From: Candidatus Geocrenenecus dongiae
GTDB lineage: Archaea; Thermoproteota; Nitrososphaeria_A; Caldarchaeales; Wolframiiraptoraceae
Direction: 5' to 3'
Length of the DNA stretch: 32,725 nucleotides
Assembly: GCA_023267855.1 (NCBI GenBank)
Contig: JALNLN010000018.1
Coordinates: 1 to 32,725 of the forward strand
Positions 18,040 to 24,063 of this stretch are shown here, piece after piece. How positions within the stretch are numbered: the stretch's first letter is position 1; each line of letters starts with the position of its first letter. Under the pieces are notes generated by a model. That model was not told the DNA's origin and searched no databases. It was given only the letters and a program-made list of their open reading frames with translations. The position numbers were made by a program, and so were the translations under genes.

Positions 18040-18638
18040 TTGTAACAACAAACAAATGGAAAGTAAGAGAGTTTCAGGAAATCTTCAAACCATACAATCT
18101 AAGATATAGAGTGGAGCCTCTAAAAACAAGGGAAATACAATCAGTAGATCTTAAAGAAGTAGCTATAGAGAGTGTACTCTATGCATATAATATTCTACGA
18201 GAACCAGTAATGGTGGAGGATGCAGGTCTATTCATAGATGCATTAAACGGGTTCCCAGGACCATACTCTTCCTACGTATATAGAACGATAGGTGTGAAAG
18301 GTGTATTGAAACTTCTCGAAAACCTACAAGATAGAAAAGCAAAATTCGTCTCAATAATAGCATTCTATTCACCATTTACAAATCTTAAGACTTTTACTGG
18401 AGAAGTAGAAGGTAGGATATCTTACGAAGCTAGAGGAGAGTCTGGGTTCGGTTTTGATCCGATCTTTATACCAATAGATGGAGACGGTAGAACATTTGCA
18501 GAAATGAATTTAGAAGAAAAGAACAAGATATCTCATAGAGGTAGATCGGCAAGGAAGTTTGCTGAATGGATTTCTAGTCTCAGAAAGCTACCACCACCCT
18601 ACGTAGATATGTCGGAGGAAAAGAATGAAGTCTTCTAG
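18027..18638 (+). CDS. rdgB: Non-canonical purine NTP pyrophosphatase (RdgB/Ham1)
   Basis: A 203-residue ITPase that hydrolyses ITP, dITP and XTP to monophosphates and so keeps deaminated bases out of nucleic acid. The family motifs TTNKWKVREFQ, VEDAGLFIDALNGFPGPYS and GFGFDPIFIP are intact, as is the late NKISHRGRSARKF. It overlaps the end of bud32 and is presumably co-translated. The last 4 nt overlap the 3' end of the converging pheS. Confidence 0.93.
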   Translation: MRFIIVTTNKWKVREFQEIFKPYNLRYRVEPLKTREIQSVDLKEVAIESVLYAYNILREPVMVEDAGLFIDALNGFPGPYSSYVYRTIGVKGVLKLLENLQDRKAKFVSIIAFYSPFTNLKTFTGEVEGRISYEARGESGFGFDPIFIPIDGDGRTFAEMNLEEKNKISHRGRSARKFAEWISSLRKLPPPYVDMSEEKNEVF

Positions 18639-20086
18639 ATTAATCCGATTTTCTTCTCTAAGTATATTGTAGGGATACTGTGTATCCATCTTAAATCGTT
18701 TACATAAAACATTCTAATGTCTTCGAGATTGTAGAGTGCGAGTGCAAGCCTCTCTAAACCTCCACCCCATGCAAGTACTGGATACTTTACTCCAAGCGGT
18801 CGTGTAACTTCGGGTCTAAAAATCCCCATACCTATAAGTTCAAGCCACACCTTCTTATCTTCAAGATAAACTAACGCTTCTGCAGAAGGCTCAGTGTAGG
18901 GGAAGTAGCTAGGTCTAAATCTAATGTTCTTTAAGCCAAGTCTTGAATAGAATTCTTTAATAACTCCTAGTAGATCTCTGAAACTTACGTTTCTATCCAT
19001 TATGATTCCTTCTATTTGGTGAAATTCAGCGAGATGTTTCCAATCAACTTTCTCGTTTCTATATATTCTGTCTACTGAGAAGACTTTTACAGGAGGATTT
19101 GGGTTTTCAGCGAGATAACGTATGGTTGTAGCTGTGGTGTGTGTTCTAAGTATAAGTTTTTCAGCTTCTTCTCTACTCCACTTATACCTCCATCCTAGAG
19201 AACCTGTTCCACCACCTGTTTCATGAGCTTCCTTAACATTCTCAACGAAAGCTTCTGGTAGAACACCTCTACTAGGCTCTAGTAGGTAGAATGTATCATG
19301 CATATCTCTGGCAGGATGATCCTGCGGTTGGAAGAGAGCATCAAAATTCCAGAAAGCAAGTTCAACTATAGGCCCCCTTATTTCTTCAAAACCCATCTCA
19401 ACGAAGATCTCTTTAATCAATTTTATTAATCTCTCAAGTGGATGCCTCTTAACGATGTACGCAGGCCTGGTTGGAGCTCTTATATCAAATCTACTAAACT
19501 TCACCTTCCTCCAAGAACCTGCGATAAGCATTTCCTGGGTCAGCTTGGTAACTTCAGTGGTCTGTAGTTCTTCTTCACTTATCTCCAAAGCTCTGCTGGT
19601 TAATTTGACGAAATGTTTCCTAACTTCAAAAGACTTAATCACTGATTGTCTTTTAGATAAGTTTTCTACAGCTTTCTTCAAATCATCGCTAAGTTCTTCA
19701 TAATACAGGTAACCTTCATCTTTGAGAATCTTAAGGAGTTTTTCTTCTACGGTTTCTTCAGGATACTTTATCAAAACAATATGCTTACCGTTTTCTCCAA
19801 CTTCAATCTTCACCCAACCATTTTTCTTCGCCCACATCAGACTTATTTGGAAATACCTCTCACCTAGAATCTTATTAACATCTTCCATACGCATAGAACC
19901 TCCAGATTCTTTCAGTAAATCTACGAGTTTCCTTTCAGGCAACTTGGAGTATGCATATTCTCTCCCCTCTTCTCCAAGCTCTATACGATGTTTAATTATT
20001 TCATGGACTTCTACGAGATTTTTACTTCTAAGCCATTCTACAGACTTAGCTACAGATCCAACATCTTTCCCAATTTTCTCCGCCAC
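18635..20086 (-). CDS. pheS: Phenylalanyl-tRNA synthetase alpha subunit
   Basis: Catalytic alpha chain of the heterotetrameric PheRS. Class II motifs are clear: FEEIRGPIVELAFWNFDALF, PARDMHDTFYL, HTTATTIRYLAENP, motif 2 around KVFSVDRIYRNE, and motif 3 WGGGLERLALALY. The first ATG/GTG/TTG in frame is GTG 20086, giving 483 residues, but the frame stays open upstream to about 20229. The 30 codons before GTG, including LHWLEKSLLQVLRREDRPLS, complete the N-terminal winged helix seen in archaeal PheS, so the protein very likely begins at a non-canonical codon near 20170-20176 (about 513 residues). Confidence 0.9.
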   Translation of the reverse strand: MAEKIGKDVGSVAKSVEWLRSKNLVEVHEIIKHRIELGEEGREYAYSKLPERKLVDLLKESGGSMRMEDVNKILGERYFQISLMWAKKNGWVKIEVGENGKHIVLIKYPEETVEEKLLKILKDEGYLYYEELSDDLKKAVENLSKRQSVIKSFEVRKHFVKLTSRALEISEEELQTTEVTKLTQEMLIAGSWRKVKFSRFDIRAPTRPAYIVKRHPLERLIKLIKEIFVEMGFEEIRGPIVELAFWNFDALFQPQDHPARDMHDTFYLLEPSRGVLPEAFVENVKEAHETGGGTGSLGWRYKWSREEAEKLILRTHTTATTIRYLAENPNPPVKVFSVDRIYRNEKVDWKHLAEFHQIEGIIMDRNVSFRDLLGVIKEFYSRLGLKNIRFRPSYFPYTEPSAEALVYLEDKKVWLELIGMGIFRPEVTRPLGVKYPVLAWGGGLERLALALYNLEDIRMFYVNDLRWIHSIPTIYLEKKIGLI

Positions 20087-20169
20087 CTCTTCAAAAGATA
20101 GAGGTCTATCTTCTCTCCTAAGAACTTGTAGAAGAGATTTTTCTAACCAGTGGAGAACAGGCTTTGAAA

Positions 20170-20187
20170 CAATAATCGCGCACCTGC
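20170..20187 (-). promoter_or_regulatory. Candidate pheS ribosome site and ATT start codon
   Basis: On this strand AGGTG (20185-20181) is followed by CGCG and then ATT-ATT-GTT in the pheS frame (20176, 20173, 20170). Spacing to the second ATT is 7 nt, the same as GAGGTG to ATG in L10e here. TATA-like GGTTTAAG at about 20211-20217 places the transcript start just upstream. No ATG, GTG or TTG occurs in frame between the upstream TAA and codon 20086. Confidence 0.5.
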
Positions 20188-20320
20188 GATATTGTCTCTC
20201 CCAGCTCCACTTAAACCTTTTCCCTTCTTACTGGAAATCTTTCAAAGAAATCCTATGGTGAGAGATACTTCAAATTCTTCTAGTATTTCTTTATGGTTAG
20301 AGTGGAGGGTAGTAGAAGAC

Positions 20321-20860
20321 ATGGCCGAACCCTATAGCAAGATGATAGAAGCAGAGTTTTCGAACGGTATCGTTAAGACTGTTTCAAATGATCTTTCTAG
20401 AGAATATCTCAGAAAAGGATTTGGCGTAGAAGAAGGAGAATTCATAGTCTACTCTCCTATAGAAGCACTTTACCTAGTTGAGATGAAGAAAATGATAGTG
20501 AGAGATCATGAAAATAAAGAACTTAGATTTAACGATTTACTTACAATATTCTCAAAAATAAATCAGAATATTTGGAAAGAATATATAGTTTACAGAGACC
20601 TTAGAAAGAGAAACTATGTAGTTAAAGATGGTTTCAGCTCTGAGCTTAGATTTAGAATCTTTGATAGAGGAGAATTTTCTGAGAAGCCTGCCAAGTATCT
20701 TTTAGCAATAGTATACGAAGGTAGAAACGCCCCCATAAGAAAGATTGTAGAATGGCTTGAAATATGTAAGAACATGAAGAAAGAACTAGTACTCGCAGTT
20801 GTCGATAGAAGAAACGAGGTAGTATACTATACGGTCAAGATGGTAGACTTAAAACCTTGA
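20321..20860 (+). CDS. endA: tRNA-splicing endonuclease structural (non-catalytic) subunit
   Basis: A 179-residue EndA-family protein. The N-terminal domain has the YSPIEALYLVE element; the C-terminal nuclease fold has YIVYRDLRKRNYVVKDGF, LRFRIFDRG, KYLLAIVYEG and NMKKELVLAVVD. The catalytic triad is degraded: the Tyr site is Phe114 and the His site (normally HxKYLV) is Pro123; only the Lys (153/154) remains. Crenarchaeal endonucleases are heterotetramers of catalytic and structural chains, and this fits the structural chain; the catalytic partner is not in the window. ATG 20321 follows a GGAGGG ribosome site; ATG 20255 is an alternative. Confidence 0.85.
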   Translation: MAEPYSKMIEAEFSNGIVKTVSNDLSREYLRKGFGVEEGEFIVYSPIEALYLVEMKKMIVRDHENKELRFNDLLTIFSKINQNIWKEYIVYRDLRKRNYVVKDGFSSELRFRIFDRGEFSEKPAKYLLAIVYEGRNAPIRKIVEWLEICKNMKKELVLAVVDRRNEVVYYTVKMVDLKP

Positions 20861-22980: not shown

Positions 22981-23071
22981 GGGCCCGTAGCTCAGCATGG
23001 ATTAGAGCATCGGCCTCCTAATTTATATAGAAGATAGCCGGTGGTCGGGGGTTCGAGTCCCCCCGGGCCCG
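22981..23071 (+). tRNA. tRNA-Arg(CCT) with a 15-nt intron
   Basis: Acceptor GGGCCCG (22981-22987) pairs with CGGGCCC (23064-23070); discriminator G23071. D arm GCTC/GAGC, T arm GGGGG-TTCGAGT-CCCCC. Anticodon CCT is at 23017-23019, and the anticodon stem TCGGC/GCCGG is completed after removal of the intron at 23021-23035 (37/38 position). The splice site is a relaxed bulge-helix-bulge: CTCC faces GAAG with one C-A mismatch in the central helix. TATA-like TAATATTTT lies near 22950. Confidence 0.93.
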
Positions 23072-23294
23072 CATCGTTTATTATTGTTAGTTTTGTGGCT
23101 TAGAGTTAGCTGACCATAAAGTTGGGAGAGTGCGATGAATATTGGTTGGCTTAAAATCTTGAGCTAAAAACTAGAAGTAGTAAGTAAGAGAAAAGCGATA
23201 AAGTTGTAGAGAACAGTTCTATAAGATTGAGTATCTATTATTTTATTTGTAATTATGTGTTTTTAGAGAGAATGTTAATTAGTTGGTTTTATTT

Positions 23295-23759: not shown

Positions 23760-23778
23760 AGGAGGGTGAAGATAGCTG
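23760..23778 (+). promoter_or_regulatory. Strong Shine-Dalgarno before a CTG start codon (rpoH)
   Basis: AGGAGGGTGA (23760-23769) is the strongest ribosome-binding sequence I noticed in the window and is followed after 6 nt by CTG 23776-23778. The codon immediately before CTG, in the same frame, is TAG (23773-23775), so translation of the RpoH frame cannot start upstream. Confidence 0.65.
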
Positions 23779-24063
23779 TCAAAGAAAGTTAAAAGAGAAA
23801 AAGTTCAGAAAAAAGAAGAGAAACCAAAGTTCTCTATTCTTGAACATGAACTTGTACCAGAACATAGAATTTTAAGTCCTGAAGAAGCTGAACAAGTATT
23901 GAAGAAATATGGTGTACGTCCACAGCAACTGCCTTACATACTAGTTTCTGACCCAGTTGTAAAGGAGATAGGTGCGAAACCTGGAGACATAATAGAGATT
24001 AAGAGAAAGTCTCCAACAGCTGGAGAAGCAGTATACTATCGTGTAGTGGTAACAGGCGAGTAG
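23776..24063 (+). CDS. rpoH: DNA-directed RNA polymerase subunit H (Rpb5 C-terminal domain homologue)
   Basis: About 95 residues. A Lys-rich head ([12 protein letters not shown]) leads to the canonical RpoH core: [20 protein letters not shown], then KKYGV, the [20 protein letters not shown] element and a final [14 protein letters not shown]. It contacts DNA at the jaw of RNAP. It has no ATG, GTG or TTG upstream of codon ~41; the only reasonable initiation site is CTG 23776 behind a strong Shine-Dalgarno. The core is complete, so this is not a pseudogene. In many crenarchaea rpoH leads into rpoB; here a converging small gene follows, so it is transcribed alone. Confidence 0.9.

Follow-up and report, generated by a model that had tools for sequence, protein, structure and literature searches.

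The pheS reading frame

Which codon starts translation of a gene whose reading frame offers no standard start is the question raised by pheS, located on the minus strand of contig JALNLN010000018.1 from Candidatus Geocrenenecus dongiae. The window, i.e., the whole stretch of 32,725 nucleotides that was analysed, belongs to a genome (G000) of the genus Ca. Geocrenenecus, Caldarchaeales (Aigarchaeota), in a family of archaea that inhabit hot springs, and all genomes compared here are metagenome-assembled. Translation of PheS, the alpha subunit of phenylalanyl-tRNA synthetase, most probably begins at an AUU codon (20173–20171) placed behind a Shine-Dalgarno (SD) sequence. Read from this codon, the gene spans positions 18635–20173 (512 codons and a stop), as delimited by the profile match, the alignment and a structure model, and the proposed amino terminus of its product is M(I)-V-S-K-P-V-L-H-W-L-E-K.

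The identity of the gene was defined by a profile search. The minus-strand frame 18635–20230 matches NCBIfam NF003210 (archaeal PheS alpha) with E = 3.5e-177, residues 8–503 of the frame read from 20176 aligning to positions 4–493 of the 496 in the model. The full-length family match and the presence of an amino terminal winged helix assign the protein to the archaeal/eukaryotic type of PheS; human PheRS alpha (3l4g) can be aligned with it from residue 14. Above 20176 the frame remains open for 17 codons, up to the TAA at 20230, and carries zero ATG, GTG or TTG codons, as the initial annotation had pointed out. The earliest standard start codon downstream is GTG 20086 (20086–20084).

The region upstream of this GTG has the features of a translated sequence. 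Fifteen PheS sequences from 15 species, aligned from the ATT onward, share L7, H8, W9, L10, E11 and L18 without exception, and upstream of the GTG equivalent the amino acids are conserved while third codon positions are free. The structure model of residues 1–200 counted from the proposed start (mean predicted local distance difference test score, pLDDT, of 92.6) features helix 1 at residues 9–21 and helix 2 at residues 27–34. GTG 20086 corresponds to residue 30, within helix 2, so that a start there would, according to the model, remove helix 1 entirely, cut helix 2 in half and destroy the first winged helix. This is the outcome anticipated when the GTG was first questioned, and the homologous proteins do not start at its equivalent.

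Conservation of the start site

The order of elements on the minus strand is the one originally read from the window: a TATA-like box TTTAA (20215–20211), followed by the SD core AGGTG (20185–20181; full form GGAGGTGATC), CGCG, ATT 20176, ATT 20173 and GTT 20170. The box lies about 40 nt above the start and reads TTAAAT in most relatives, its TTAA being invariant in the alignment of 13 species; judged from its position, the pheS leader would be short.

The 13 species that carry the ATT (five of Geocrenenecus, six of the genus Wolframiiraptor and two further ones) represent three genera. They all have AGGTG, GAGG or GAGGTG at the SD position, followed after about six bases by ATT-GTT-TCN. The nonamer T-ATT-GTT-TC (TATTGTTTC, positions 20174–20166, −1 to +8 relative to the start) is identical in the 13 species and is the longest invariant block of the pheS start region, despite the PheS proteins of relatives being only ~61–71% identical to that of the window. 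The preceding triplet, ATT 20176 in the window, varies between ATT, CTT, GTT and CCT. G006, a 14th species that represents a fourth genus, carries ATA instead of the ATT and ACA instead of the GTT, and the sister genus Terraquivivens has an ATG, one codon further on in an ungapped alignment. The 14 AUU/AUA species form a single clade of the PheS tree (support 99/96), sister to Terraquivivens, and the change therefore appears to have arisen once and to have been inherited since.

An in-frame TAG two codons ahead of the ATT in six of the 13 species excludes a leaderless or otherwise upstream start of pheS in these six. The position of the first standard codon downstream differs among species, ranging between codons 5 and 118; it is codon 86 in W. 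gerlachensis, the cultivated member of the family (PMC9246946). G001 lacks any standard codon between the TAG and codon 113, as does G012 (a W. sinensis contig) over the stretch separating codon −5 from codon 118. The upstream stops in six species and the lack of any standard codon until positions 113 and 118 exclude ordinary starts.

Single-codon usage is rare in the remainder of the gene. Codon choice is uniform in only five of the 208 columns of the 13-species codon alignment that hold an invariant, degenerately coded amino acid, and the adjacent ATT and GTT of the start are two of these five. Taking the other columns as background (3/206) and treating columns as independent, the chance that both are single-codon is ~2e-4. 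Selection at the pheS start, as read from these columns, acts on bases as well as residues.

Start codon assignment and its alternatives

Canonical starts in these genomes show a peak of SD spacing at 2–5 nt. With registers aligned to GGAGGTGATC, the ATT at 20173 is positioned 4 nt from the SD in the window and its equivalents 3–4 nt in 13/13 species, while the ATA of G006 is at 5 nt. ATT 20176 would sit at 0–1 nt and GTT 20170 at 6–8 nt. By the spacing of normal genes ATT 20173 is thus the best choice, ATT 20176 being too close as well as variable, and GTT 20170 farther away than usual. The initial annotation had proposed ATT, or else GTT, without choosing within the ATT-ATT pair. Its ATT is upheld by conservation in 13 species, the ATA of the 14th, the upstream TAG and the SD spacing, but it is the second of the pair; the first had to be given up and GTT fits less well. 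Comparative evidence strongly supports the AUU start itself.

Several points weigh against this assignment. A TTG in the +1 frame (20172–20170), followed by TTT, overlaps ATT 20173 by two bases. The resulting UUG is equally well placed relative to the SD and would be expected to compete for initiation. This constitutes the main loose end, together with the GTT at codon 2, whose invariance is not accounted for by an AUU start on its own. Furthermore, the start was placed solely by comparison of metagenome-assembled genomes, and the role suggested below for archaeal initiation factor 1 (aIF1) is drawn solely by analogy.

One alternative is initiation at this GTT (GUU 20170), yielding M-S-K, with the GTT standing in place of the ATG of Terraquivivens and HR01. 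The invariance of the GTT, an ungapped alignment that sets the ATG of seven homologous loci exactly on it, and the precedent of GTT/GTC starts in Streptomyces sigR (PMC5472188) speak in its favor. However, its SD distance belongs to the tail of the distribution, the invariance of the ATT would be left unexplained, and G006 has ACA at this place versus a near-cognate ATA at the place of the ATT. A GUU start is thus considered unlikely.

The overlapping UUG could also be part of the mechanism. Initiation would then occur at UUG 20172–20170 and the initiator tRNA would slip back one base to AUU, perhaps when the UUU (Phe) codon is unfilled for lack of Phe-tRNA. Such recoding would explain the exact invariant string A-UUG-UUU, and UUG is a frequent start in this genome (54/251), here at good SD distance. 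Against it, G006 carries ATA-ACA, which provides neither UUG nor UUU, and conservation of the +1-frame peptide, sought in the 13-species comparison, did not extend beyond codon 2. We know of no precedent for slippage at initiation, and this scheme is held to be very improbable. The same small probability is given to A-UUG-UUU acting as a start-site switch, in which AUU and the +1 UUG with its next codon UUU (Phe) compete for initiator tRNA and a shortage of charged Phe-tRNA raises PheS output; if true, a tRNA synthetase would sense its own product via the choice of frame at initiation. A search for RNA structure in the pheS leader found none (−1.5 kcal/mol), and no second occurrence of TATTGTTTC behind an SD was recognised at a start in the sampled genome.

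An assembly or sequencing error, or repair at the mRNA level by an intron or editing that restores a standard start, has very little left to commend it. Every genome is metagenome-assembled and introns occur in the mRNAs of other archaeal genes, but a single error, envisaged at the outset as hiding a standard codon, cannot recur as identical bases in 13 independent assemblies, and promoter, SD and start within ~45 nt would leave no room for an intron. The least probable explanation is an ordinary start at GTG 20086, the first ATG/GTG/TTG of the frame, with untranslated or spurious similarity upstream, which is already contradicted by the protein-like conservation of the residues forming helix 1 and by the shift of the first standard codon between species.

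Proposed mode of initiation

Initiation at AUU 20173 would rely on the SD helix (AGGTG), which on a short leader would position the small ribosomal subunit with the AUU at the distance found in ordinary genes. The initiator tRNA (anticodon CAU) would pair with the AUU and insert methionine, giving a protein that begins M-V-S-K. With the SD taking care of placement, the weak codon would be tolerated. Additional pairing of the invariant U(−1) and G(+4) with A37 and U33 of the initiator tRNA may contribute. The position of the start, its conservation and its SD are established by comparison, from which methionine insertion and the extra pairing are extrapolated. The AUU would go back to the ancestor that Geocrenenecus, Wolframiiraptor and two other genera have in common, and would have been retained from then on.

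The components expected for this process are present. The initiator tRNA has the anticodon CAU and an ordinary loop, and an intact aIF1 gene is found in all relatives with adequate genomes; no striking change of aIF1 was seen in the family alignment, made without Terraquivivens rows. Work on Sulfolobus and Pyrococcus shows that aIF1 counter-selects non-AUG starts, destabilising the complexes formed on these codons (PMC6237735). By analogy with bacterial infC and sigR, which are subject to initiation factor 3 (IF3), the AUU might hold PheS synthesis at a low level that responds to aIF1. Control of the PheS level by aIF1 is the leading candidate for the function of the AUU, although held less probable than not, and a fixed low initiation rate without regulation is about as likely. 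The aIF1 gene is itself preceded by an invariant AAAGGAGGTAGGTAATG at 14 loci of family genomes, possibly the end of an upstream gene overlapping the aIF1 start (TAATG).

Near-cognate starts in other genes of the family

The gene for RNA polymerase subunit H (rpoH; 23776–24063, plus strand; Pfam RNA_pol_Rpb5_C, E = 1.2e-34) was also suspected of a non-canonical start, and this proved correct. It opens TAG-CTG-TCA-AAG (23773–23784) behind the SD AGGAGGGTGA (23760–23769), the TAG standing directly upstream of CTG 23776 and no earlier standard start being available. In the four relatives of the same genus the corresponding codon is ATG or TTG. Alignment thus supports a CTG start in this species only.

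Orthologs were surveyed by comparing G000 (1.03 Mb) with G003 (0.78 Mb, contigs of G. huangii) and G012 (0.40 Mb), yielding 501, 234 and 172 reciprocal pairs; shadow open reading frames were filtered out and each candidate was read individually. The near-cognate starts retained in G000 are those of rpoH (CTG), a 2-hydroxyacid dehydrogenase (CTG), a Clp1-like kinase (ATT) and a xanthine-dehydrogenase-type subunit (CTG). G003 has ACG in rpoA1 and in an Hsp20-like protein, and CTG in the same xanthine-dehydrogenase-type subunit and a probable TrpB (identified by eye), while G012 has CTG in ribosomal protein eS31. Spt5/NusG, dCTP deaminase, acyl-CoA synthetase, ThiL and Nop10 were dropped as candidates, a usable ATG or TTG being found slightly downstream. 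Near-cognate starts amount to ~1% of testable genes per genome in these three genomes of the family. Among those found, the putative pheS start is the most conserved. The relaxed start selection suggested from pheS and rpoH is supported by the rpoH CTG and by several near-cognate starts in core genes.

All retained near-cognate starts stand behind an SD with a run of 5–9 matches at a spacing of 3–5 nt. Since only 75/251 canonical starts (30%) have an SD run of at least 5, strong SDs seem to go with weak start codons; one of the candidates (Hsp20) was itself found via its SD.

Individual genes differ in how widely the near-cognate codon is shared. Nine species from three genera, Terraquivivens among them, carry the CTG of eS31 (S27ae) behind GGAGGTG or GGAGG, with a stop between the SD and the upstream frame in most of the nine; at the corresponding position Geocrenenecus has TTG or GTG, and another family ATG. 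The rpoA1 gene of G003 reads AGGAGGTGATGTAGA-ACG, its relatives having ATG, and that of G025, from another family of the order, starts with CTG; ATG and TTG are the codons of the sisters of these two. The Clp1-like kinase of G000 reads TAA-ATT-CCA-GTA-CAT behind GGAGGTG where relatives have ATG, GTG or TTG in place of the ATT, and provides a second, species-specific AUU start in the genome of the window. The Hsp20-like gene of G003 (contig C7, minus strand) reads GGAGGTGATTGAGA-ACG-TCT, G000 having ATG; given an in-frame TTG that overlaps the SD, its ACG start is likely, not certain.

Neighboring features

A tRNA intron endonuclease gene (20192–20860, plus strand) diverges from pheS. Its listed open reading frame extends into the pheS leader, and translation probably begins at a more internal ATG. 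At 22981–23072 (plus strand), ARAGORN reports a tRNA-like gene with an unreadable four-base anticodon (tcct), perhaps a misread intron-bearing tRNA.

Comparison with known systems

Most known non-standard starts of this sort belong to a few bacterial regulatory genes. If confirmed, the present case means that, across deep divergence, an archaeal lineage has kept AUU as the start codon of an essential gene, and that it tolerates CUG, ACG and AUU as starts of core genes, including those of RNA polymerase and ribosomal proteins. Genes of this type are overlooked or shortened by standard gene callers, producing a PheS that lacks its first helix or, in some relatives, at least 113 residues. A literature search, with most subscription journals outside its coverage, found no natural AUU-started archaeal gene.

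By its comparative features, the absence of a standard start in several species and a near-cognate codon at normal SD distance that is conserved at the nucleotide level, pheS belongs with genes of the infC and sigR kind, on whose start codons IF3 acts (PMC5472188). Like infC of E. coli and Streptomyces (AUU/AUC, autoregulated by IF3), it is an essential translation gene with an AUN start behind an SD, conserved across species; it differs in that infC is bacterial and regulated by IF3, a factor lacking in archaea, whereas pheS codes for an archaeal tRNA synthetase subunit and its start is known here from sequence comparison. Streptomyces sigR shares with pheS a conserved non-standard start found by genome comparison. 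Its start is GTC in 32/34 species and GTT in two, behind the strong SD AGGAGGTG, and is repressed by IF3 (PMC5472188). In contrast to pheS, it was tested by mutation and amino terminal sequencing, and it concerns another codon, domain and gene. The closest system for the machinery is that of Pyrococcus and Sulfolobus, in which aIF1, initiator tRNA and SD-led mRNAs are present as here; that work addresses discrimination against non-AUG codons in vitro and describes no natural AUU gene (PMC6237735). As a natural substrate, the pheS AUU would lend itself to tests of aIF1 fidelity, in a domain whose initiation factors resemble the eukaryotic ones.
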